Notes under the pieces: model-generated
The model's database searches: none
Seen by the model: the letters and a program-made list of their open reading frames with translations, nothing else
Told to the model about the DNA's origin: nothing
Position numbers and translations under genes: made by a program
NCBI GenBank assembly: GCA_036924285.1
Contig: JAYKYS010000005.1
Span: 23,410,001-23,474,000 of the forward strand
DNA length: 64,000 nt
Direction: 5' to 3'
From: Asterella californica
Lineage: Eukaryota > Streptophyta > Marchantiopsida > Marchantiales > Aytoniaceae
In this document: positions 2,855-62,732 of the stretch, one piece after another
Layout: each line of letters begins with the position of its first letter
Numbering within the stretch: the stretch's first letter is position 1

Positions 2855-3101
2855 AACCGTCTTAACCTGTGTGTAGCCTGCACAGATCTGAACCCAATAA
2901 CACCTTGCACGCGTGTATTGGACTTCTGAAATCCTCAAATCGTCCATCGACAGTCGCAGGCACAAGCTAACCCCTAAGCTGTCCCTTGTTACAATCTCTA
3001 TACGTACAAAGTTCAGTCAATTTTTAATAAAGCAGTCCCCTTGCGTCCTTGATATAACGCTTGAAACCTCAAATATTCAATCAGCAAATAAACTAGGGCT
3101 T
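2855..3101. repeat. Dispersed repeat, second half (direct copy at 53315-53549)
   Basis: This segment matches 53315-53549, starting near 'CACAGATCTGAACCCAATA' and ending where the 157-bp tandem units begin. On the left it follows the first half directly. On the right the two halves are separated by a roughly 3.9-kb insertion. Confidence 0.6.
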
Positions 3102-3569
3102 AGCTTGATTTTTCCTTCTTTCGAGTCGCATAACTTCTTCACTAGACGTCCAAACAAAGTAAACAATGTCTATGAAAAGCTGACAACGAGCTCTACCCAT
3201 CGATGCGATGAAAAGGAAGATCCGAAGTTGTGCCAAAAGCCTATAAGCTAGAGCTTAGCTTGTTTTCTCCATCTTTCGAGTCCTATAACTTCTCCACTAG
3301 GCGTCCAAACGAAGTAGACAAAGTGTATATGGAGTGTTGACAAGAAGCTCTATCCATTGATGCGATGAAAGTGGAGATCCGAAATTGCGCCAAAAGCCCA
3401 TAAACTGGAGCCTAGCTTGTTTTCTCCATCTTTGAGTCATGTAACTTCTCCACTAGGCGTCCAAATGAAATAGACGAAGTGCTTATGGAGTGCTAACAAG
3501 GAGCCCTATCCACTGATGCGATGAAAGTGGAGATCCTGAAGTTGCACCAAAAGTCCGTAAGCTGGGACC
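3102..3569. repeat. Three tandem units of about 157 bp
   Basis: Units begin with TAGCTTG at 3102, 3256 and 3413, and a fourth start is at 3570, giving periods of 154, 157 and 157. Each contains CTCCATCTTT or a variant, ACTAGGCGTCCAAA, 'GATGCGATGAAA' and a closing 'CCAAAAG.C'. The right-hand copy of the family (53550-53837) has one full unit and one partial. Confidence 0.8.
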
Positions 3570-3589
3570 TAGCTTGCTTTTCTCATGAG

Positions 3590-6003: not shown

Positions 6004-6449
6004 ATGCAGCCACAGTTATCATCTTCTTCTTGTTTGAGAATACCTGCAGTTGCGGCCGCAGCAGCAGCAGCAGGACGTAGGTCTAGTAGTAGAACAAGAG
6101 TGTCAATGCCGACTCCTCCAGTCTCCACTCGTTCGACTAGTGCCGCCGTGAGGATGTCCAGCGCACCGAACGTTGTGCAAATTACGCGCCCTGTGATTCT
6201 TTTCGATGTCATGGGCACCATCGTCCGCGACCCCTTCCATGACAGAATGCCCGCCTTTTTTGGGTTTGTACCTCACTCCTCCCCTCCGAGTTCCCTCTGG
6301 AAATATAATTTGCGTTCATTCTCATAGTTTGAACGGTGAAATTGGGTGCCTGTGGGTGACAGTAACAACAGGACGCTACAGAAGCTGAGAATCCAACTTC
6401 AACTATGTTGAGGAGCAGGTTCGTTGGATAAGAAGATAGGCTGACATCA

Positions 6450-6546
<97 letters not shown>

Positions 6547-8788
6547 TACTAACAAAGGGTTGCATGTCGTGGCTTTTCAACCATAGACGAGAAAGAGACA
6601 GAGAGAGTTGAGAGGCCCATGCTGTTAAGTGTTCCGTGCTCGGCTTCCTTGTCTGTGGGACGAGCGCTGTCGAGGATCAGCAGTTGTTAGATGCTTTGCC
6701 TGTTTTGTTAGCAGCCAGTAAGTCCCAGGGATTCGCGTTTCCTCTCCGCCGCACTGCTGCTTGTGGCTGGTTAGAAATTAAATTCCCGTCAGCGCAATTG
6801 AAGCCAGCTGCTGCTGCTTTATGTTACTGCCCTTAGCTCGTTATGACAGGCTCGAGGATGAGATCCCTTTGACAGATACCGGCTAGATGTGACAGGTTTA
6901 CCTTCAAGGAGCTGTTAGCGGCTAAACATCCCACAGCATGGATTGAGTTTGAGAAGGGACTTCTGAGTGAGGTTTGTCCGCTAATCCCTGCTTGAGTTCA
7001 ATTTCAACAGGGACGTGTTTGAGTGACAGATTTGATGGAGTTTTCCGATTCATTCGGTCGGATGGATTTGAAACGATTTGTAGGTGACAAGTGAACATTT
7101 TCACGTGCTGAAGAAGATTTTTTCTTGTTAGTGGGGCTTCGTGTGTGCAAGTGTAAGTAAGTTTGTAGTAACGACCTAATATACCCAATCCAGTGACTGC
7201 AGGAACAATTTGCTGCTAAGTTTTTTGAGGATGGAAGAGAGTATGATTATGAAGGTGCGTGCAATCAAAGTTGACATGCTCCATGTCTTGCCTGACTAGG
7301 ATTGATCGTTCATGGAATGCAACGATGCAATGCAAAGGAATGCCTTGTGAATTGGACCACGAATGTTGGTAAAATATTCATCTCGGCTTTGTTTCTGAGA
7401 GCCTCAGTGTCCGGCGCTAAGGAATTTGTCAGCGGGTTTCACCTTTTAGACGTGAGAAAACAGAACGTTCCCATCACTTGAGAAGTATTTCTCTGCTCCG
7501 CGAGTCATCATTTTCACATATTTCTCTACCGTGATGGTTAGATTGGGTTGTAAGCTCTTCTGACCAGAAAGGCATTTATCTCAAAGTCACGAAGTGAAGC
7601 GCCAACTATCCCACAGTTGATACGTGACGATATGGATTATGGACCTCAAGATGAACCTACAGTTAATGATATATTACTAAACTTTCCTCCATGACGCAGC
7701 CACCATGGTCGGAAACGGTACGACTTAGTTCGTTTCTACTGGATGATTTATAGTTAGGAACTGGGACTACGGGGAAACATTCTCTCAGTCGGTATTATAG
7801 TCCAGGCCGTTGAGCAGACTTCTTCACCTAAAGAGACTTCAGCTCCGAGGACGTAGCCACTTTACAGGATACCTTTTGGCAATACCCTTCGTTCTACTGT
7901 GGACAAATTGAGTGGTGAATCTCATCAGAGTGCTGGGTGAAACCTGCACTCCTCTCGGGGATTTATCTTGCAGGACTAAAACTCTGTATGGCAAGCGGCT
8001 ATGAGTACTTAAATGGAATGGCGACCCTATTACAACGTCTGAAAGCTGCCGGTTTTCAGATGCACGCTTTCAGCAACTACCCGACTTGGTAAGTGCCTTG
8101 CTGAAGCTTATACGAACATGATGATGCTCTCCTTACGGCAGGTCTTCGATATTGCGAAGCTCATTGTGTCCTCCCGTAAGCCTCCTCTCCACAATCTATT
8201 GTGCAGGTACACTATGATAGAGGACAAACTTAAACTATCTCAGTACCTGCCCTGGACTTTTGTTTCGTGCCACTCTGGTATATACTCAGCTCACGTCTGA
8301 GCACTTTGCTTTTCAGCGACCTTTCTGCTTTTCTACCTTCAAATGTCACTCGCGCAATGTTAGTCTGAATTGACTAATATGCTCATCTGATACGCGTGGG
8401 CTTGCCATCTGCTTGGTAATATACAGGCTTGAGAAAACCAGACCATCAAGCCTTCGTAGATGCTGCAGAGGAATTGGGCGTGCAGCCATCAGACTGCATT
8501 TTTGTTGATGACCAGTAAGTAACTCGTGTATATGCGGAAGTAGAGCCCAAGTTGGAGGAAGCAAGAGCTTCGGAATGAAGATATGCGTAATCTAGAATGT
8601 GTGCTCTGCATCTAGTTGACGGGTAAAAATGATGCAGATCCAGGAATATCGAAGCAGCAGTGAAGGTGGGCATGATGGGGATTCAGTTCGAAAATGCTGA
8701 AGTTTTGGAGAAAGAACTTGCAGCACGTGGCGTTGTCCTTCAACCTCCAGTCCCCTGCGTTTCAAATGTCATGGAGGCCCATACGTAA
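6004..8788 (+). CDS. Chloroplast FMN hydrolase-like HAD-family phosphatase (7 exons)
   Basis: The exons are 6004-6263, 6896-6971, 7203-7254, 7974-8088, 8207-8277, 8427-8514 and 8638-8788. All junctions are GT-AG and the phases join without a break to give 270 residues and TAA. Residues 1 to about 58 are rich in Ser, Ala and Arg with a poly-Ala run, as expected of a plastid transit peptide. The core follows plant FMN hydrolase (AtcpFHy1, At1g79790): motif I ILFDVMGTIV with Asp68, then FEKGLLSE, motif II AFSNYP, motif III Lys in LRKPD, and motif IV FVDDQ. In that family the enzyme removes phosphate from FMN to give riboflavin in the chloroplast. Motif I is unusual: the second Asp of the HAD DxD is Met70. 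Intron 1 holds a long GA repeat. The family assignment is from memory; the exon joins are from sequence. Confidence 0.9.
6454..6544. repeat. (GA)n microsatellite in intron 1
   Basis: An uninterrupted run of about 45 GA dinucleotides lies inside intron 1 of the FMN hydrolase gene. Long GA tracts near plant 5' ends can bind BPC/GAGA factors, but no function is shown here. Open frames through it that read as Ser-Leu repeats are artefacts. Confidence 0.95.
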
Positions 8789-9843
8789 CACCGGCGTAAC
8801 TATTACCCGGTACGCTTTTGTAGAAAGTGCATACTCAGGACCCCGGTGTACATGCTCGACAGAAAACACACTCGGTTGGGCCCCCATACACTGGTACAGT
8901 CGCAAATCTGTTGTGTTCAGTGATGGGGAACCTAGCGCCAACTTAATCCTGAGTCTTAATAATCTGCAGATAAGCTCATCGGCCTTTCGGGATAACTAGT
9001 TATCCTCGTGTACAACCCGGAACCAGCATCTTCTCTGTGAGACCCGAGCAAAGGAGAAGTAGGAACTCTGGGCGTGCTCGGTCATATACTCAGGAGCAAG
9101 ATCTACCGACTGACAGTCCGGAACTGTAAACCCGTTTTTTCCTTTTCTCACTGTGTACAGTAAGAAACTGAACCGAAAATTTCCAAGTGAATATATGGAG
9201 AGCGAAGAACAGAAAGAGGATTCTAAACTGGAACATTCCGGGTGTTTTGTAGTTGGATCCTTCTGTATCGTGGGCGGCTGGGACTTGGCAACCTAATGAA
9301 TGGCTTTTTGCTTCAAAGCCCTCGACAGTCCTATCACGTGAAAACTGAAACAGCCCAAAATAGGCTCTGTAGAGAACAAAGGTTCTCTGCACAGAACTTA
9401 CCTCTGTATCTTGCCTTGAATCTCAACTTCCTTCACTTCCGTTTCATCCTCGCCTGGGGTAAGCAGACGTTGCATATAATGCTGTCAGGCCGAGTGCACC
9501 GCTATTGACACCAATTTTCCTTAGCAGCGGTACCCTGATCAGAGAAGTCATAAGTGGGCCAGCGACAATTACATGCGAACAACGCAGAGCCTAACAAAAC
9601 TCAGGTAGCTGCTCGTGAAAGAGGATTGACGCAGTCTCAGAGCTTCCGGGAGGGGAGGAGGATACACTTAAAAGCCAGGTTCCATGTGGCGATTATAGTA
9701 CCTATGATAAGAACGGTCGCGATCTGAAAGTGTTTTAGAATTACGATAGGTTCCACGTCTGTTCATGCGATTGTGGTCTCAAATTGTTATGTAGACTCCA
9801 CTTAAAGTTATGAAAATATGATTCTATAGAGAATTCGGTTTCT
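8789..9843. other. 3' flank of the FMN hydrolase gene
   Basis: This probably includes the 3' UTR and then intergenic sequence. No AATAAA signal was picked out close to the stop, and the open frames here carry no recognised domain. Confidence 0.35.
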
Positions 9844-51249: not shown

Positions 51250-53314
51250 CCAACGCTTTTACCTAAAACTGGGTGCTTCATCAATCTCTGGATTCTGTCC
51301 ACGGGAGAATAGCAATGAAACGATATGGCAGGACTTCCACCATCCCACTTTGAGGATTGTCAATAAAGATCTCCAAGCAGTCATTCCTGCACGCTGTTGC
51401 ACCACAGTCTTCGCAGTCTAGCTTCCACTCTTCAGAAGACGAATCTAGTCTTCCAGAAGACAGCTACTCCGTCTTCCGGGATTCTAACAGTGCTTCCTAA
51501 ATAGCTCTCGTCTTCCGAGCTATATCTAAACAATCCTAACTAAGCAAGGCCTCGCATGGATTACCAAGAAGACAACCCACCTTGCATTACATCCTACTTC
51601 CTATCAGAAAATACAAGATTCACAAAACGTAAAGTGCATAACAGGTTCAGAAGATGGTTGCGGGCTCCTGCGGTGACAGTGGCCTCTAGGAAGACCCCCG
51701 GGACAGTTTCCGATTCAATGTCTTTCTCGGAAGACCTCCCGAAGTCAGGCTTCCCTTCACTGGTCTCACCTGTCTTCGTCTTTCTACGCGCAATCTATCC
51801 TCACAACAGACTCAAGACAATTGCACTCTGTTCTTCTGACTTCTCACCTCTCATACACACTCAGAAGAAGCTTGCTGTTCGGTGGGAAGACATGACCCTC
51901 GACCATTCTCTCCAGATTCTGTCAGCAAGTCTTCTCACGACTCTCTCCTAAGTTTGGGAAGAAGAAGGAATGGTTGCTAGGGGTCGGACAGAAGAGACCC
52001 GAAATGGACCCTCACGTCTTCTCGCTCATTTTGCCAGCCTTTCAGTCTTCTAGTCTCTCTAGGAAGATGTGGAGTTGAGAAGCTTGGAAGACCGGGAGGC
52101 ATAGGCCTAGTCCCCGACTTCCAACTCCTCAAAATAATAAAACAACTCATCAAGCCACTCAGGATTCGTACCAAGCCTCCCTTAACACAAAAGCAAAGCA
52201 AATCCACTCTTGATACGAATTTGTACAGTCGACTTCCGAAGACAGTCTTTCGAAGATGTTCTAATCTTCCGAATCGTCTTCTGTTCAAAGTTTTGGGAGT
52301 AGAGAGATAGTAGGGTAGGGAAATTGATAGCTGGGATCGTCAATTTGAGGACGATGGGTAGGGAAGCTCGAATTGAACTCAGGAAGAAGTAGGAAGATGT
52401 CTGAAGGAAATTGGACAGTGCTTCCGCACCCAATGTCACAATAGGAAAAATGGGGATGGGGGGGTAATCGATCAGGCTGCTTGCAAACAACCGGGGAAGC
52501 GCGGGGGATACCAAACAAAGGCGAGAAGCAGTGGGAAGGGAAAAGAACATGGGAAGAACCTCTACAGTCTTCTGTCTGCTTCTCGAGTTGTCTTCGACCT
52601 TCCGCGCGCTTCTGGCTCTGGTCCCAACTCCAATGCGACCTCACTGAGCTGCTTCCGTCGTCAGCTCCTGTCTACGCCTCAATCGATTAAGCCGTCCACC
52701 TCCGATTCCACTCAGCTGCTTCCAATGTCAGCTTCTAGGAGTTTCACAGGAAACGCTTTTCACTTAGTATGCTTCCTACGCATCAGTAATTCGACCCCGT
52801 CTTCCTTCTAGCTTCTAATCGATCCTATCTTCACTCAATTTCACCTCGCTGCCTCCTTACTCGAAGCTCACCCTCTGAAATCGATCTTCTCAAGAAGCGT
52901 GCTTGCTACAGGAAGTTGGAATGCGCTAATGCGCTTCTTGCGCATCTTCCCCACAGATTAGGGGTTTCGACCCTAGATGGCTTACCCGACCTACCTACCA
53001 CCTTGGTGTAACCTAGTAGGTACACCTACTCCTTTACCTGGAAATTCATGGTTAGACCTTCGCGGTCGCTGTCTTCCGGAAGATGGGTGTCTTCTGCTGT
53101 CTTCCCGTCTTCCGAAGACGCATTTGAGAAGACGCTTCCCGGAAGACGGTCGTCTTCCGAAGAAGTCAACTTCTTATTACAAAAAGCTCATAAGATCATC
53201 TTCCTTCTAAGGAAGCAGTAGTCTTAAGTAACAACGCTTCTTCAGTTATACAAACAAGTTATTAATCTTAAAAATTTTAAAAATTCGTGAATCTTGTAAT
53301 TTGTGGGCACCACA

Positions 53315-53837
53315 CACCGTCTGTCGACAGATCTGAATCCAATGACGTCTTGCTTGTTTGCATTAGACCTCTCAATCTCTCGAACCATCTGTCGATCGAT
53401 CATAAGTACAAGCTAACTCTTTAAGTTAGTTCCTTACGTCAATCGTTGTACGTGAAAGTTTTCACAGGTAAAGAACAAGCAAGCGCTTTGCGTCTTTAAT
53501 ATAGCGTCAGGAACCACCAATACCTAGTCAGCAATAGTAAGCTATGGTCTAGCTTGATTTTCTCATCTTTTGGATCTCGTAACTTCATCACTAGGGGTCC
53601 AAATGAAGTAGACGAAATACGCATGAGAAGGTGACAATGAGCTCTACCAGTTGATGTAATGAAAATGAAGATATGAAGTTGTACAAAAAGTTCGTAAGCT
53701 AGGACTTAGCTTGATTTTCCTACTTTTCGGACCTTTGTACTCCACCACTAGGCGTCCAAATGAAATAGATGAAGTGTCAATGGAAAATTGACAATGAGCT
53801 CTACCAGTCGATGTAATGAAAGTGAAGATCTTGTTTG
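53315..53837. repeat. Dispersed repeat, second half, right copy, with 157-bp units
   Basis: This resumes the similarity to 2855-3590 after the insertion. Tandem units start with TAGCTTG at 53550 and 53707 (period 157). The second unit ends early near 53837. Confidence 0.7.
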
Positions 53838-55004
53838 GTCTACTAATCACTAATCATCGAATAACTCATTATCTACAAAATGACAAGCTGCAAAGAAAAT
53901 GATGTCCAGCATGAGAATGATATATGAAGTCATCTATCTATCCGAATAATTGTTGCTTATTTTGTTATAGATCAAACGAGATAGATCAATCCAAATCTAT
54001 CAAGAATGAGCTCCGAAACTATCTTATTTGTAGAGCTTCGAGGCATAAGACTGATACAAAAGGATCCTCTATTCTAGCAAAAGTCTTGTGGTGATTCTCC
54101 ATCATTCCGGATTTGTTACATACGTGTCGATGTCTAAGTTTTACAGAGTTGATGTTGTGGCATCCTACTCACAGATTAGATGATGATATCATGTGGAGTG
54201 TGGCTGATTCTTTAGTCATGAAGCACGTTGTCGAGGAGAGTCCTTCTCAGGAAGGGCAAGCTTTGTGGCTGTGATAGATCGCGAGGTAGAAGTAGAGATT
54301 GAATACCAAGACAAGGACCAATCTGGTAGTCCACGATGGCTGAAGTCACTCATAGAGACTATGACTATAGGTCACTTACTACTTAACAGATCAAATCTCA
54401 ACCCTCAAGAAACAGATCCATCTTCGTACACAACCTCACGATGCTTTATTTCTCTTCCAAACACACTCAATAGTCCTCCACATACATCAATTTTTACAAG
54501 CTATCTCTACTCAACTCCTTATGTTGATCCTCGTAGATGCCAAACAGTCAATTCTCACTCAACTAATATTCTCTTCAGCAGATTACTCTCCAAAACCTAC
54601 AGCCGATGAAGATCTGAAACCCCAATGTCTTGTATCCCTTCTTGCAACAGCTTCAGCACTGAAATCCTTCAGAAAACTCGACCTTCTCAATCGTTGGCTC
54701 ACCAGATTCACCTCAAATAGCCTAGTAGGTGAATTCAAGCTCTTCCAACTCTTAATCCTCTCTCTACGTCAATCTCCCAACGGAAAACTATCAAGAATTT
54801 AATCTAGCGACAATCAAAAGTCCTCTGCCAATTATCAAAATGATCTTCTTAAATAAGACTACCTCCTGTCCGTTCAGAAGGTAGTTCTGCCTCCAAACTG
54901 TATAATAGATAAAATTTCAACTCCCAAACACTTTGTCGTGCGCATACACATCGCTACACAACATACATCGCTGTCAGAGGTACACCACACATACACATAA
55001 CACA
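53838..55004. other. Stretch between the repeat and the truncated gypsy element
   Basis: No recognised domain. A plus-strand frame at 54265-54609 may be chance. A short inverted sequence, ACTACCTCCTGTCCGTTCAGAAGGTAGT, lies near 54857. Confidence 0.35.
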
Positions 55005-55009
55005 TGGAC

Positions 55010-55470
55010 GATGTCATACACATACACAAGTGTACCACAATCTGTAAACCCTAGATCTCCTCAGGTGTAGGCATGGCATACTTATCGGGCTTCGTCTGCC
55101 GATTGATAGGATGGTAGTCCTCACACATCCGCCTATTCGTGTAGTTGCCATACATATCCTTCTTGGCTGGCATAACTGTGGCAGATGCATACTCTCCATG
55201 CGACATCTCCACCAACCCAGTCTCCAACAAGTCTTGAGTCCGACTCTAGATCAAGGCTCTCTCCATGTCACTGTATCTGTAAGGACGTCGAAAGATTGAC
55301 GTGCCATTAGCCAAGTCGATCCGTATACCAGGTCCCTTCAAGGTACCCAAATCCTTCATACTGAAGGCAAAACAATTCCTGTAGCTCTTCAAGAATCTTT
55401 GGACTCTTCGTCTCTTCTCTCCTATAAGCTTAGGTCCAATCTCTGGCTCCCAAGTATCCTCTGTCACCAT
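55010..55470 (-). pseudogene. Truncated gypsy reverse transcriptase N-terminus
   Basis: The reading starts with an RT-connection segment (KLIGEKRRRVQRFLKSYRN, then GIRIDLANGTSIFRRPYRYS). It passes a TAG at 55246-55248 and continues in the same frame through LLETGLVEMSHGEYASATVM, AKKDMYGNYTNRRMCEDY and DKYAMPTPEEI. The YxDD catalytic part would lie beyond the truncation near 55010. This is the usual Ty3/gypsy RT entry region. It shares its frame with the C-terminal part of the methyltransferase upstream, separated by a single TAG at 55501-55503. Confidence 0.85.
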
Positions 55471-55739
55471 GCTAGAGGTAGAAGACGAAGTCGTTGACTG
55501 CTATCTTACAACCTCTGGAGCAGTTTCCTTTTGCTCACCACCAACAACCTCCACCGCTACTGCGCGTAAAACTTCTGCAGTCCTAGCTGCAAGCTCCACA
55601 CTCTCTCCTATGACATCCCATGATGTCCAAGGATGACGAACTCCATACGCCTCGCCCCCAGTCTTTGCCTCCACCGACTCGATAGGCAAAGAACTCAGAA
55701 GTGTCCGAGCAATAACACCCGTCGATCGCATCCGACGCT

Positions 55740-56735
55740 GCTCAGCCAATCCAAGGCTAACAATCCATGTCAAGCAATTCAAGTCCATTGCTTGACCCAA
55801 TACTTGACGACGTGAAGTCTCCGACACCGAAGCTACTGCCGTCGTACTCAATGCCGATGAGAGAGAGCGAGCGAATCGCTCGCTCTCTCTCATCGGCATT
55901 GAGCTCCACCAACTGCCGTAATTGAGCATCCCACACAAGCCTAGGTCCTCCATCTCTATAAGCATGTGACGCTGGAAAGCTCATCAACGTGAGCAACGCT
56001 ACCATAGGTCGTCCCACTAGGTTCACCACTGCCATGTGTGACATATCGACGACTCTCACTACTTGAGATCGTCGTCCTGCATCCAAGATGTTATCAACCG
56101 TGAGATGCGCTAGTCGTCTCACTCCATCGTGTGCGCGCTTAAGCACCTCTCTCGATAACAAGTTCATCCACCACAACCGTGGACGATGTGCACGAGATCC
56201 TACCCTCGCTGCATCCAACAACACTGTTGGCCAACCCAAGACCGCACTTGGTGCACACTCGTCATCATCTGTGTACGAGCATCACCCAACAAAAGAACGT
56301 TCTCCAAGATGTACGTTGGAGAATCCACCTGATGCATCTGGATATGCATAAGATCCGTAACATCTCCCAGAATATCCTAGACCGTGGGTTATGTAATCCT
56401 TGACCTCTCCCAGCACGCGTGTGACCTTGACATGGCCATCCGGCTATCACCAAGTGAATGGTGCCAACAAACGTAAGATCCTGTGTCCCCAGCAGTGAAA
56501 TATCTGACGGTAATGCTTGCTAGTATCCTCTAACAGCTGATATGGACAACAACTCAGGATATCTCTGCACCAAACATGCCACATGTCGCAATGAGATGCG
56601 TCTCGCAATCTCATCTCTCTCCACATACAAGTATCGATGTACTTGTATGCTTGCTTGCAATACCGTAGCCAAACCTGTGCTGATTCCTCCAAACAGCTCC
56701 AGCACACATACACCCTCCTCTGGATAATGTCACAC
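55740..56735 (-). pseudogene. Retrotransposon-borne C5-cytosine DNA methyltransferase, broken
   Basis: Motifs appear in the canonical order. Motif I is VCVLELFGGISTGL (56670-56710), followed by YLYVERDE. Motif IV is AGWPCQGHTRAGRGQG, with the catalytic Cys codon at 56430-56432. Motif VI is YILENV (ENV at 56296-56304). Motif VIII is ARVGSRAHRPRLWW (near 56170). Motif X is RRQVLGQAMDLNCLTW (near 55780-55820). The family transfers methyl from S-adenosylmethionine to cytosine C5 in DNA. This copy carries TGA at 56730-56732 and TAG at 56520-56522. Frameshifts lie near 56350 and 56230, and a 27-bp inverted duplication (55847-55903) sits where a GFP-type motif IX region would be. The frame upstream is shared with the protease. 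The target-recognition region is short. Confidence 0.85.
55847..55903. repeat. Perfect 27-bp-arm inverted repeat inside the methyltransferase
   Basis: Arms 55847-55873 and 55877-55903 are exact complements around AAT. On the minus strand the first-read arm encodes LNADERERA, a phrase expected in this family. The second arm is its mirror, so it looks like a local inverted duplication that overwrote coding sequence. Confidence 0.95.
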
Positions 56736-57113
56736 AATGGGAGTTGTATCCAAAGGTGATAAGGTCACAAGACCAGTAACAAGAACAACCCTTTGTTCCT
56801 CTATTGGTGGTACAAAGGCTTCACTCCAAGCCTGCTGCACCAAGTGATCAGCATACTGCTGCAACTCTCCACTCGAACTCCAGAGTGGAACATCCAAGGC
56901 AGATGGTACTAACGTAGACATGCTAGGCATGTCCTCCACCTCCTCAAAGACCGGAGTATCCTCCGCATAGGCATTGCCTTCTAGCAACTCGTCCGACCAA
57001 GTGATGACCGAATTGAACCTTGCAACGGATGCCATCGTCCTTGGTGTAGACTCCGTCGTCCCAATTCTAGCACTGAACCGCACTGATAAGCGGCTCACTC
57101 GTCCTTCACCGGA

Positions 57114-57440
57114 CTACCAACCTGGTCTGTAAGATGCTATCTCCGCCCAATAGTCGATCACGAATCCCATAGGGTACAACACAGCACCTCCAACCAATAC
57201 ATCATAAGACTCTGAGGCTGTAACGATGACCTTGGCCCTCACCATAGAGCCTTTCGTGGGATGATCTGGCCGAACTCTCATCGTCAACATCTCACGTGTC
57301 ATGTGTAGAGCCGTACTCCTTGATCCTCCTAGAGATGTCTGCAACTGAATGGACATCTCTCCACCTCGGACTTCTTCAGACCCAAACCAATACATGACGT
57401 CTTTCCCAACATCAACGGTTGGGCTCCAGAGTCTAACAAG
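57114..57440 (-). pseudogene. Gypsy retropepsin-like protease
   Basis: LLDSGAQPLMLGK carries the aspartic-protease DSG. It follows the gag frame through an in-frame TAG at 57464-57466. Near 57395 the reading shifts frame and continues through QLQTSLGGS and VIVTASESYDVLVGGAVLYP to WAEIASYRPGW and TAG at 57114. In Ty3/gypsy elements this enzyme cuts the polyprotein. The frameshift and stop make it inactive here. Confidence 0.8.
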
Positions 57441-57463
57441 ACCTTCTGGGGTCGATACACTTT

Positions 57464-59610
57464 CTATGAAGGTGCCATCAAACAGAAGATACCACTTTTG
57501 TTGTCCAACAACACTACACCTGGTGCCAAACCAACACGGTCAATCGCCGGCTTAGCTGGTAACTCATCTAACCTAGCAGCCGTCGCTTGCCAAGTACCAC
57601 TGGTAGTTGTCATGATCCTCGACTCCATGGACACGTCTACCGCCTCTCGCTGAACTACTTCAGCACTAGAGGTAACTACATCCTTGCTCTCACTGAGCGT
57701 GACCGCCAACTGGAACACTGAGCCAAGTTGACTCCCAATGTCCTCATATCCGTGGCTGAGAATAGTGGAGCTCGCAAAACTGCTGTAGCCGCCCCCAACA
57801 TCGAGTTCGACGTCGCATCCACAGACGTCGAGAGTGGACTCACATCCACTCCTGGATGTCGATACCTCCAACTCTATTGCATCATCGATAGGCCATTTAG
57901 GAACCATAGATGTGATCCTCAACGCCTCCGATAACGTGAACGGCTGGGGAAGCCTGGTCTGTCTACCAGCCTCTCCACGTTGTGGATCCAACTCCACTGA
58001 CGCACCTCGTGGCTCGGAGGCACGTACTACACCTCTAGTCATTGCCGCAGATGTCTCAATCTGCGCCATGTCAGCCATGAAGTCGAAGTCACCTCCTTCT
58101 CCTCCGTAAGACGTGGAAGCCTTTGTTCCACCTGATCTCCGTTGAGCCATAGCCATACTAGCTATCCTCTGCTTCAACTGCTCAATTCGAGCAGCTATAC
58201 CTGCTTCTGACGTCGTAGCAGGTGGTGGACAGACCGATCCTCTCTTAGGTGTTGGACCTCTACCTCCAGCTCGACCACCACGGCCTCCCTGAGCTCCTCC
58301 GCCTCGTCCACGATCAGCCTTCCCTTGCCGCAACTCGGGATGGAGATCAAAACAACAGTCACTACTGTGACCAAGTCGTCCGCAATGCTCACATTGCCTA
58401 GGTACTGCTTGAGACGTCCCTGACGTCCCTGAAGTCTCATAACCTCTCCTCTGTGGACAATCCTTCTGCTGATGAGGACCATCACATGTCCAGCAAGGAC
58501 CCGCTTGCTGCTGACTAGAGAAGGACGGCATGGGCTTCTGCCCACCAGATCCTCCAACACCTCCCTGAGATCGTGACTACTCTGCACTATCCTTACCACC
58601 ACCACCACCACGCTGTTGCGTAGCCTGTGATCCTCGAGAAGAGGTGGTCGCTTCATGTGGTGTCTCCTTGCTGAATCCAGCAACCACCACCCTCTCCTCC
58701 ACCATGTTGAGCTCAATCTGCTCAGCCAGACCAAAGACAACTGCCAACGTCGGAGCGGTGTCTCTAAGAAGAGTAGCATCTCTAAGTCTCTTACGCAGCT
58801 CCCGGTCTAGTATCCCATATCAGAACTGGACTGCCTGTGCTTCCGTCACCCCTTGGGTAATGCTGATCAACCGTCTCATGCGAGTAAACGCCTCGCGTAA
58901 GCTCTCTCCAGTCTTCCGCTAGAACTCTTGTAGACTCCTCAACTTGTCGGTCCGCACACCCTGATAATTCTTCCTCAAACATTGGAAGAACTGAATCACA
59001 GGGTTAAACCATGGTGGTATCCACCGCTGGTAGTAGGTACTCCGTCACCTGTGGATGTACCACTGCTATTGGCACCCGAACTCGCAGGTGCTACGCCTCC
59101 CAAAACTGCGCAAGTAGTGATAGAAACGTAGTTGGGAGACCAATGTTGTCTCCACAACTCGATCTCAACACTGTAATCTCGTCTGAACTCATGATAATCG
59201 TCCATCGGCGGTTCCTCCAAGTGCTGGAACAAACCCTTCCACGCCATGAAGGATGTAAACAGCTGTGGGTTCCACATCTGCTGCATATCGCACCAACTGT
59301 CGAACTCCTGGATGAAGTCATCCAGCTCAATGGTACCAACTGTACCCGAGTAACGTCGAGGCCCCTTCGTGGCTCCATAGATCTCGTCCATGTTCCACAA
59401 CAACGGTGTGGTGACACTAGACTCACCATCAGAAAATGCGCTGTCTGCGTCTGACTCATCCTCTGGAACAACTGACGGCAAGGGTGTAGGTAGTCGGTAC
59501 CTCATCCCACTCCGTGTATGCCCACTGTCCGAGAAGTCCTCACCAGAACCTCCCGAGAACTCCGTGATGAGAGAATCTTGATAACACACTCCCCAACCGG
59601 AATGTCGCAA
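57464..59610 (-). pseudogene. Gypsy gag with two zinc knuckles, broken
   Basis: The frame from ATG at 59610 runs to a TGA at 58996-58998. The coding sense shifts by one frame near 59008 and continues with FNPVIQFFQCLRKNYQGVRT, a retrotransposon gag core. It has TAG near 58919 and near 58575. From 58531 an open stretch carries CWTCDGPHQQKDC and CEHCGRLGHSSDCC, two CCHC knuckles (the first with three residues before His instead of four), then a Gly/Arg-rich run. The capsid/nucleocapsid role is that of the family. Stops and the frameshift mark it as decayed. Confidence 0.85.
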
Positions 59611-59619
59611 TCCCCGTCA

Positions 59620-61539
59620 CCACCGTAACCACCACTTGCCTAACCCCGCTCCTACTAAGCTCACCTATCCCCTACTAGGACGGTCAAGGTAAGGACAACC
59701 TGTACCTAGCATCACCACAGGCAGCCTCTCACGGTCTGCTGGTCGTCACTCCAACCGCACCGTGAGAGAGACAAAGGTAGTCTGACTGATCCGCAACTCC
59801 AACCTCACTACCGACAGCACACTGGAGTGAACTCACTATGGAAATCAAGCGCCAACACAAGCAAACGCGGCGCACAAACAGGAAGCAGAATATGGAGGGG
59901 TTTCAACCACAAGAAGTCCAAACGATAACACTCCACACTCAAACATTCACATAAAAGGAAACTCAACCTCACCCGGACTAACGACTCCTCGTCGGTGACC
60001 ACATGCACAATATATGATCACCAACTATCATAACTATATTTGAGATCACTAACTAGATGTCTACACCTCTAGTAGCTCCAAAAATATCCACGTGGTAGCT
60101 CTACTAGCTCACCCAAGACAACTATCACCAACTGCCTTCATACGCGTCTCTACGCTATAGGCAAACACTACCACAACTATAGCTTACCCCTAATACTATG
60201 GGGTCACCCTACCAGTCCTCTAGGAACATGCAAGAATGTCTCATACTACCTTATACAAGTCCATAAGTACTTGCACGTATCCCTATAGGACACCAAGAGC
60301 TATTGGTCTAGTGGTAAAGCCAAAGCTAAGACTACAGAGTTAAGTGTCCAAGTCCAGAAATAGTGTTGGCATCGGTGACCAGCTGGAATTACACTTCCCA
60401 CACAACTGAAACTTGGATACCTCTCTCACGCACGCACGCACGCCAGCAAGCTTGCTTGCGGCGGGCGCGGGCTCGGACTCAGGCTCGGGCTCAGGCTCAA
60501 GCTCCGCTCCGCCTCCGCACTCTCGCACTCCGCTCTCACGCCTCCGCACTCACGCACCTCTGCTCCTCGAAGCAGCAAGAACACCCAAAGTCAACCCAAA
60601 CACCACTACAACAGATTCGCAAATGCACCATACACACTTCGCGAATGCACACACACACAACAAACTCCTAAACTCGAGTTTCCACATGAAATTGCACCAA
60701 AATTTGACGTATCTAGCCTTTTTGCACTTTTGGGTGACACGGCAGCGAACTTCGACATGCCATAACTTCCTCGATGCTCGGCCAAACTCCACAAAACTTG
60801 ATGCACTAGAATCGTCTCTCCAATGCACTTCCAAAGAGCCCACTCCGACTTGACATTGACAAGTACTTCGGCTACCACGCCTAAACGCGCACTCCGGATT
60901 CAACAAGTCACTTCAAGAACATTCCGCAAAATTTCTGCAGCGCTTCCGCATGACAGAAAATCTTCACTCGATCCCACAACAACAATCGATCTGTGACCAG
61001 TAATGTAGCATGCGCCCACACACCTCGATCATAGCTCCAAACAATCAAGCACGAACGACAACGCCCGAAGATACCAGCGGACTATTTCAGATCAGCGAGT
61101 TCTTACTGAACTCCATCTCGACCTGCATTCAGTTCTTCGAGTAATCTGAACAGAGAAATTACCATCTCCAGCACTGCGGCAAAGATTACTCACAAATGGT
61201 CAAGCCAAACCCACTCTATGCTCAAGAGAATCCGGATTACACTCAACTAGACTATCCACCATAGCCAGGAGCTTGAAGGCTCAACTCGAAGAACTAAGGC
61301 CTCCAAGCCCTACCTGCGAAGTATACCTCTAGTGGGCTCTCCCATCAACTCGTCCTAATGGCACTAACGGCCTTACCAGGATGCGCCACTTCGCACTCGA
61401 TCAACCTAACCGAGGAGCCAAACTGACTGAGCCAGAAATCTGATCTCCCCGAGCTCCCAAGCTTCTCCTGTCCGTCTCGATGGCTTCCGCCTCCGCTCTT
61501 TGAAAAAAGTCCCTTGAAAAGTCCCCGTCCAAAGTCGCC
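59620..61539 (-). other. Leader or LTR 3' part of the gypsy element
   Basis: Lies between gag and the LTR portion shared with the left copy. The LTR end and primer-binding site could not be fixed. A low-complexity CACG and GGCTC repeat stretch occupies 60424-60560 and yields Glu-Pro repeats on the minus strand. A weak tRNA-like A box and B box occur at 60308-60352. Confidence 0.4.
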
Positions 61540-62732
61540 GCAGGTTATTTAACCTAAAAGTTAAGGCCCTAGCTAAGCTGCCCCCCTTACTGTCCTTTTA
61601 AGCACAGTCACTTATCAGAAGCAAATCCTTAGCTAAGCTGCCCCCCTATTGTCCTTATGTATACAGAACTCTTCTTGCAAAGCTGACACCTTTTTAATAA
61701 AAAGTTCACAGCTGTCTTTACAAAGCAGACTCCTTCACTGATAAAGGTTTCACAACTTCCTCCGCCATTGCTAAGCCGACTTGACGACTAATTAACGGAT
61801 TGACAAAAGTTTCCCGTGCTCTTGATGCCACCTTGAATATACCACAAGCTATCTGCCGAAGCCCATACACTTATGAGGCTGTCCCACAGGGCGTATAACC
61901 CCCTCATATGCGCACCAGGTATCTCTTATGATATATTCACTGTGGCATGCGAAGGCTTAGGTAAGGAAGTCCACGATTAAGGGAGATATCGGTCTTCCGC
62001 ACCTAGATATGTAGGATGTGGCTATGAGGCTGCCTCACAAGGCTTACAACCCCTTCATATGCGCACCAGGTATCTCCTATGGTATATTCAGTGTGACATG
62101 CGGAGGCTTAGGTCAGGAAGCCCACGATTAAGAGAGATACCGGTCTTTCGCCCCTAGATATGTAGGATGTGGCTACATATCCAACATAGACTCTCATCCA
62201 GGGGACCAACATGCCGGAATAGGAACCGAGGCCAGGAGGGATTGATCTTGAGACCACTTCTCTCCTAGGCAAGTGCCCTATCACTGGGATGGCCTTTGGT
62301 TCTGTTCTAAAAGCAAAAGAATTCTGTACATATGCTTTTTACAGAGAAATTTTTCTGCAAAGTCTTTACTAACCTTTCCTACACTAACTTCTCTACACAA
62401 CTCCGTTTCTAATGAATGAGGAGTCAAAACTATAGTACTCATGAACACTTACACACACACCTTATCAGATCCAAGGTTCGAAGCACGAGCCAGAATCGAC
62501 GGATTTCTCTCTTTCGCATATTTCTCAAGCTAAAACTCGTACTAACTACTACTTAAAACACTTTCTGTCAGAACTAGAAGTACGAAGTTGCCGCCTCGAC
62601 GAGCTCTGCATTCTGGAAACTTTTGTCCCTTTCAGGGTGATATCTCAATCCAAGCTAGGGGGCAGCTTGTCGAGCATAGCCCCAACTTAACTCTTGCCTA
62701 GCTTGATAAGCTAGGGTGCAGCTTCTTAAGCA
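61540..62732 (-). repeat. 5' LTR region of the methyltransferase-gypsy element
   Basis: Reads from TGCTTAAGAAGC at 62732 down the minus strand and matches 113-1170 of the window in inverted orientation. Beyond about 61540 the two copies diverge. It contains a duplicated 151-bp module. Confidence 0.7.
61872..62173. repeat. 151-bp tandem duplication inside the LTR
   Basis: Units 61872-62022 and 62023-62173 both begin with TATGAGGCTG and end with GTAGGATGTGGC. Between are GCGCACCAGGTATCTC, GGCTTAGGT and CACGATTAAG. The left LTR copy has this module only once (about 668-815). Confidence 0.9.

Follow-up and report, generated by a model that had tools for sequence, protein, structure and literature searches.

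A decayed copy of a high-copy gypsy-type retrotransposon with a predicted DNMT3-class cytosine methyltransferase in the bryophyte Asterella californica

The window analysed here, a stretch of 64,000 nt from Asterella californica, carries on its minus strand a broken copy of a Ty3/gypsy retrotransposon in which a C5-cytosine methyltransferase (MT) lies between the protease and the reverse transcriptase (RT). Its features are given below in the reading direction of the element, with the evidence for each; L037 is a host copy with open frames that served as the reference for the window, and L040 and L041 are further host copies.

61143..61434, minus strand: repeat A, 5' terminal, begins with TG (blastn, about 89% over about 290 bp to A of L037, L040 and L041)
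59581..61142, minus strand: 5' untranslated leader, about 1.5 kb (blastn to L037, L040 and L041, 86-93%)
57437..59580, minus strand: Gag and linker, broken (tblastn of the L037 ORF1 translation, 84-90% identical, with internal stops)
about 58393-58352, minus strand: zinc knuckle inside Gag/linker
57100..57436, minus strand: aspartic protease region, end approximate (motif and tblastn)
about 57436-57419, minus strand: protease motif LDSGAQ, upstream of the MT
55740..56711, minus strand: MT domain, broken by stops and frameshifts, assigned to the DNMT3 class (PF00145; tblastn motifs; profile and predicted fold of open-frame relatives)
about 56702-56685, minus strand: MT motif I, LELFGG (tblastn against L037)
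about 56435-56427, minus strand: MT motif IV, PCQ (tblastn against L037)
about 56304-56296, minus strand: MT motif VI, ENV (tblastn against L037)
about 56191-56183, minus strand: MT motif VIII, AHR (tblastn against L037)
about 55800-55783, minus strand: MT motif X, LGQAMD (tblastn against L037)
55849..55900, no strand: 26+26 bp inverted duplication without spacer, in the MT before motif X (sequence; reverse blastn, L037 5466-5491 to 55849-55874)
55495..55503, minus strand: UAG followed by CAGUCA (CARYYA, type I readthrough context), between the MT and RT ORFs (sequence)
55054..55500, minus strand: RT ORF, N-terminal 149 residues, then cut off (tblastn to ORF2 1-149, 94%)
55042..55053, minus strand: deletion junction; RT core, RNase H, integrase, PHD finger and purine tract gone (blastn, L040 coordinates jump from 6269 to 9118)
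54934..55041, minus strand: repeat B, 3' terminal, ends CGACA (blastn, 97% to B of L040; sequence)

An earlier note, made from the letters of the window, had read, on the minus strand, methyltransferase motifs I, IV, VI, VIII and X in succession, with a gypsy protease on one side and the beginning of RT on the other. The tblastn comparison with L037 bears this out, as it returns Gag, protease, MT motifs I-IV-VI-VIII-X, stop and RT ORF start in that order, and the coordinates given there (55740-56735) fit the motif positions. The Pfam check that it proposed came out positive: PF00145 (DNA_methylase) matches the broken frame at 56519-56268 (minus strand) with 27.3 bits against a cut-off of 22 (E 3e-6), while the other eight pieces in the same search gave no match at E <= 1. 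A Pfam protease domain was matched neither in the window copy nor in L037 ORF1; the relative P0030 has Asp_protease_2 (E 1.3e-5).

Over 3981 alignment columns the window copy is 93.6% identical to L037 (blastn), and it is dead, given its stops, its frameshifts, the inverted duplication within its MT and a deletion that runs from within RT (about 55053) to the 3' B (55041). Splicing was considered as the cause of the deletion and ruled out, because the open-frame copies end with GGGGGGCG before B, and not with AG. The 5' end consists of A only, not of A+B; at the 3' end there is a single B, a second A was not found, and no target duplication was found around the copy (TTTC versus AAGT). The inverted duplication at 55849-55900 is a repair-type scar. 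As for the surroundings, a 151-bp unit in two tandem copies (89%) lies at 61872-62173, immediately upstream of the element, and a 157-bp tandem repeat is present twice in the window (3088-3584 and 53537-53829). The 3' flank of L041 (9603-9731) matches the latter at 75%, and that of L040 (9630-9899) matches window 52091-52330 at 86-87%; therefore, these copies sit in repeated DNA.

A broken copy with no target duplication could be a chimera or artefact, with a fragment of a host methyltransferase inserted into one gypsy copy. We hold this to be extremely improbable, as a single-copy chimera is refuted by the host genome (516.7 Mb), where the MT-to-RT junction pattern, with exact context and a free middle codon, occurs 901 times (437+464), and its reversed control 0 times; therefore, the arrangement is not due to chance. 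The situation that the earlier note named as contrary to its claim, a gypsy family devoid of the domain with an insertion at this one place, is thus not what the genome holds. Also against a chimera are homologues in other species, as well as an ORF1 that runs uninterrupted across the MT as far as the UAG in 15 of 16 copies (chosen for open frames). The MT is an integral, fixed component of the element family.

In the PF00145 search of the host genome, at least 123 places scored among 1250 candidates, several of them in open frames, the longest of 1381 codons. Sixteen element copies were fetched, picked for the length of their open frames and hence a biased sample, together with four other PF00145 loci. 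Both ORFs are open in nine of the 16; ORF2 behind the stop is fully open in nine (1041 codons in eight, 1038 in one). ORF1 of L037 is a Gag-protease-MT frame of 1370 codons whose last part is the MT, and PF00145 is above its cut-off in open frames of L037, L035 and L043. ORF2 of L037 (1041 codons) contains RT, RNase H, integrase zinc and rve domains, and a C-terminal PHD finger (Pfam, E 6.8e-11 for the last); in the place of the PHD finger no chromodomain was matched up to E 0.1. It can be seen that RT, RNase H and integrase stand in the Ty3/gypsy order with an rve core, that a tyrosine recombinase is absent among the Pfam matches, and that the best solved-structure match of ORF2 is Ty3 Gag-Pol (2.1e-99). 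For the PHD part, the best structure matches include the PHD fingers of KDM5B, KDM5A, Lid and PHF21A, several of which read unmodified H3K4. With open frames in other copies, Pfam, profile and fold in agreement, the earlier description of a Ty3/gypsy element with its own C5-methyltransferase is upheld.

For the substitution rates, 43 host loci with an MT match were reduced to 24 with at least 300 residues free of gaps and stops, of which 22 were distinct. Among these 22 open frames the MT dN/dS is 0.19 by sums, with a median of 0.185 over the 174 of 231 pairs with dS > 0.05; the pairs are not independent, and the selection of open frames pulls the ratio down somewhat. Judged by these ratios, the MT is under purifying selection. 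An origin of the MT as a host gene fragment was rejected, since the other host PF00145 loci are DRM-type or DNMT3-like: L048 and L050 are DRM-type (with a PDB match for L050), L049 is DRM-type by its similar Pfam span only, and L001, the sole host locus put in a tree, is DNMT3-like with split exons and stands apart from the element MTs. L049 and L050 lie on the same contig about 31 kb apart, on opposite strands and with the same PF00145 span, so that L049 looks like the pair of L050.

The class of the enzyme is DNMT3 by profile and by predicted fold. Motifs I, IV, VI, VIII and X are found in order, with the AHRxR expected of DNMT3, and in the profile search of the PDB, DNMT3A was best (7.9e-21), followed by DRM (1.5e-10, a partial match), HhaI (2.2e-8) and tRNA-C38 MT/DNMT2 (1.4e-5 or worse). 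DRM methyltransferases are permuted. The MT of the relative P0043 (80% identical; alignment of 28) was modelled with a pLDDT of 90, and all 50 Foldseek matches listed for this model are DNMT3 structures. The MT could still be kept for something besides DNA methylation: it could extend Gag as a structural or RNA-binding part, or methylate the packaged RNA. In favour of such a role are its position within the Gag ORF, before the stop, the strongly diverged MTs (57-84 bits) of one algal subgroup and the lack of activity of the Klebsormidium MT in yeast, a result which the accessible part of that study (PMC5890265) makes inconclusive by its own control. However, the motif IV Cys, the Glu and Asn of ENV, and AHRxR are invariant across 11 diverse aligned element MTs, DNMT3 is a much better match than DNMT2 in both profile and fold, and the dN/dS is 0.19, so we regard a non-DNA role as rather improbable and continue with the MT as a putative DNA methyltransferase.

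Between the two frames stands a stop codon in a particular context. ORF1 ends with TAG followed by CAGTCA, in frame with ORF2, in 15 of the 16 fetched copies (chosen for open frames), and in the sixteenth (L046) it ends earlier, at TGA. At the free middle codon, the 100 sites listed of the 901 in the genome have TAG (95), TAA (3), AAG (1) and TGG (1); the flanks were fixed by the junction query, and therefore this genome-wide listing tests the codon only. According to the accessible text of PMC5382211, tobamoviruses, benyviruses and pomoviruses use UAG-CARYYA as their type I readthrough context. A 49%-identical relative, L062, has the same layout with TAG CAA TCA (UAG-CAAUCA), which fits CARYYA with different letters. 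Among the 41 proteins of the first relatives search, 19 (P0002-P0004, P0006, P0007, P0009, P0015, P0017-P0025 and P0027-P0029) end 69-125 residues past the MT, while P0010, P0013, P0016, P0031 and P0032 end sooner after it. Five Marchantia models (P0005, P0008, P0011, P0012 and P0014) and one Sphagnum model (P0026) have no stop after the MT and continue to RT or to domains beyond it, a point against the leaky stop, which splicing by the annotator may have hidden; P0030 has all domains in one ORF, and the ten left over (P0033-P0042) belong to the algal type.

The ends of the element follow a plan of split repeats. A copy consists of a 4-bp target duplication, A, leader and ORFs, the purine tract GGGGGGCG, B, GC, A, B and again the 4-bp target duplication, where A is 293 bp (TGTCACG...CAGATT), B is 108 bp, and the final B ends CGACA. 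This A-coding-B-A-B order with TG..CA termini was present in all ten copies whose 5' end was read, and the target duplication is exact in eight of ten copies examined, with three of four letters in L033 and L046. Two full direct LTRs at the ends, as in Ty3/gypsy elements, are not present, whereas the TG..CA termini and the short target duplication of that group are. The B-GC-A junction is exact or has one change in 13 of the 16 fetched copies (not in L031, L032 and L036), and exact junctions number 574 genome-wide (control 0). Measured insertions are young, because their repeat pairs are identical or nearly so: B1 equals B2 in seven of ten measurable pairs and differs by one base in three, and A1 and A2 differ at 0, 0 and 2 of 293 positions in three copies. 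Inspection by eye after A revealed no TGG-type primer site, and the replication model is incomplete because no primer binding site was recognised. L062 keeps CACGACA-GC-TGTCACG and the purine tract, while its repeats otherwise look different; the two ends of its contig (1-9285) overlap by 127 bp, as they would after circular closure of B-A during assembly. The contig, which the public record bins as an uncultured Synechococcales cyanobacterium MAG, consists of a gypsy element with MT and PHD, and looks like contamination of that genome record from a eukaryote.

The earlier note was unsure whether land plants have such elements; named relatives occur in liverworts and Sphagnum. Those listed are from Marchantia polymorpha (up to 76% identity over the MT), M. 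paleacea, Riccia sorocarpa, Calypogeia fissa, Sphagnum fallax, Sphagnum troendelagicum and Closterium sp. NIES-53. A search with integrase-PHD named Chlamydomonas eustigma, Tetrabaena socialis, Cymbomonas tetramitiformis, Pseudoscourfieldia marina and 'Tetstr1' models, which we take to be Tetraselmis striata. No row named Klebsormidium was among the matches listed, most rows having no species label. In a search for relatives in viral contigs, 46 stretches matched a pattern, and none was confirmed.

The integrase-PHD search found 139 relatives, of which 120 were listed, the query protein included. By profile, an MT is present in 104 of these 120 and absent in 16, and a PHD finger is present in 109 (the query itself contained PHD). 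The MT lies after RNase H and before the integrase in 77 (hereafter mid-position, as in many algal elements), before RT/RNase H in 25 (bryophyte-like elements have it before RT) and at an unclear place in 2. All trees were quick, with long rows and a thin outgroup. In the RT-RNaseH tree (54 rows), MT-bearing elements and six MT-less rows part from six MT-less outgroup gypsies (97), and a single branch (100) unites the mid-position rows with three MT-less ones that fall among them. Two of the MT-less outgroup elements, P0271 and P0274, have a PHD finger before the integrase, so PHD alone does not define the clade. In the first MT tree the mid-position MTs are one branch (95), and the host element groups with Marchantia, Calypogeia and Sphagnum elements (100). 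In the rooted MT tree, all 30 element MTs form one clade against the host DNMT3-like gene and four bacterial MTs (SH-aLRT 99), and the mid-position MTs are not resolved as a single branch.

The simplest reading of these trees suggests one old capture of the MT and its later relocation, in preference to a capture confined to the Klebsormidium lineage. Independent capture was proposed for Klebsormidium by de Mendoza et al. 2018 (PMC5890265, accessible part), and in general form this would mean that gypsy elements captured MTs separately in several green lineages, with the shared layout as convergence. The two MT positions would agree with this, as would the long branches, the 16 of 120 listed relatives lacking an MT by profile and the mid-position MTs not being one branch in the rooted tree. 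Against it stand, in trees that are quick, the single clade of element MTs apart from host and bacterial enzymes (99) and the mid-position group, one branch both in the first MT tree (95) and, with its three MT-less rows, in the RT tree (100). We therefore think separate captures unlikely, with some weight left to them, and favour a single old capture.

Some algal elements deserve separate mention. One subgroup (P0241, P0244, P0248, P0249, P0251-P0253, P0257-P0260, P0265, P0268 and P0272) keeps the MT slot before RT with the strongly diverged MTs mentioned above, which possibly changed substrate or were replaced. In others there is an extra domain after the PHD finger (P0036, 1641-1881; P0040, C-terminus), with DPWAGTG and TSPWF in P0036. 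From these motifs, the extra domain of P0036 looks like a second, adenine-type methyltransferase; it had two weak PDB matches (E about 0.5) and no Pfam match up to 0.1.

As to how the element may work, we propose that ribosomes would mostly stop at the UAG, with Gag-PR-MT as the main product, while a minority would read through and make the RT-RNaseH-integrase-PHD enzymes; the MT would therefore be made at Gag stoichiometry and enter the particle. There it would most likely methylate cytosines of the element's own cDNA before integration, presumably at CG by analogy with SymbioDIRS-Dnmt3, and once methylated, the cDNA might escape sensing, or be silent from the moment it joins chromatin and burden the host little. 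Standing at the site of the chromovirus chromodomain, the PHD finger may steer the integrase to a histone-H3 state. The internal B-GC-A (GACA-GC-TGTC) in the RNA could template the termini left incomplete by transcription, as supposed for PAT/DIRS, and the DDE integrase would process the CA ends and join them with a 4-bp stagger.

Traces of methylation were sought in the decay of the copies. Between the window copy and L037, transitions amount to 12.6% at CHG, 6.7% at CG, 5.5% at CHH and 2.8% at A:T, and this CHG-biased decay resembles host CMT-type methylation of a silenced plant transposon. Twelve of 27 further loci, those less than 95% identical to L037, when pooled give CG 8.2, CHG 7.9, CHH 6.3 and A:T 5.1%, which is only a mild excess at CG and CHG. 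CG-specific decay as a footprint of self-methylation was not seen in the window copy or in these 12 diverged loci.

Taken as a whole, the explanation of the window as a decayed copy of a high-copy gypsy-type element with an integral DNMT3-class MT, made at the level of Gag and methylating cDNA, with PHD targeting and B-GC-A restoration of the ends, is in our opinion probable. A bolder form of it is a tentative proposal, which we would sooner doubt than expect to hold in full: that a single ancient DNMT3 capture founded a green-lineage gypsy clade from chlorophytes to bryophytes, with, in bryophytes, a tobamovirus-type leaky stop, a packaged MT that pre-methylates the cDNA, and a PHD-directed DDE integrase that joins PAT-like split-repeat ends. 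If true, the element would write its own epigenetic state ahead of integration.

Retrotransposons are usually the victims of DNA methylation. Green algae and bryophytes harbour a family that has kept a DNMT3, with hundreds of copies, some of them young, and with purifying selection on the enzyme; this implies that carrying it pays, and the family is well suited to asking why a parasite of the genome should carry a silencing enzyme. The question of why a transposon would methylate DNA becomes testable in tractable plants, e.g., Marchantia, where relatives sit, and the leaky stop gives a concrete prediction of the amount of enzyme. The split-repeat ends together with target duplications call for a replication mechanism that is neither that of an ordinary LTR element nor that of DIRS.

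In the openly available literature, as judged mainly from titles and the beginnings of abstracts, no report was found of MT elements in bryophytes, of the PHD finger, or of CARYYA readthrough in retrotransposons. This suggests that the bryophyte copies, the leaky stop and the PHD finger are apparently new, while DNMT-bearing retrotransposons as such are already known. In comparison with chromoviruses, the chromodomain-bearing gypsy elements of mosses and other plants, the element has the same gypsy Pol with a C-terminal domain of chromatin-reader type; the chromodomain of chromoviruses is C-terminal, after the integrase, whereas the Asterella element has a PHD finger and no chromodomain match, plus the MT and split repeats. 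PAT/DIRS tyrosine-recombinase elements, as described in the accessible text of PMC4157794, have the same A1-B1-A2-B2 split direct repeats but neither integrase nor target duplication, unlike the DDE integrase and 4-bp duplications found here.

DNMT-bearing retrotransposons have been described in dinoflagellates and in a charophyte (PMC5890265), and were restated for streptophytes and dinoflagellates in 2025 (PMC12344493), both as far as accessible; DIRS elements were previously known for Dam-like adenine MTs (PMC5890265, likewise). SymbioDIRS-Dnmt3 of Symbiodinium (same source) has the same DNMT3 MT inside a retrotransposon and the A-coding-B-A-B repeats, and its domain methylates CG de novo in yeast; however, it is a DIRS element with a tyrosine recombinase, and the Asterella element a gypsy with a DDE integrase. 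The closest system is KnitGypsy-Dnmt3 of Klebsormidium nitens, for which the accessible part of PMC5890265 gives the same gypsy domain composition with a DNMT3-class MT in the polyprotein, purifying selection (Ka/Ks < 0.2), as in Asterella, and repeats described as DIRS-structured (Fig. 4c legend), the same plan as here. The likeness to the elements of de Mendoza and colleagues is therefore closer than the earlier note had claimed, because the split-repeat plan is shared as well. That part of the paper makes no mention of a leaky stop or PHD finger in KnitGypsy-Dnmt3, and the Asterella element differs from it in belonging to a bryophyte, in having its MT upstream of a CARYYA-type stop, and in carrying a PHD finger after the integrase.
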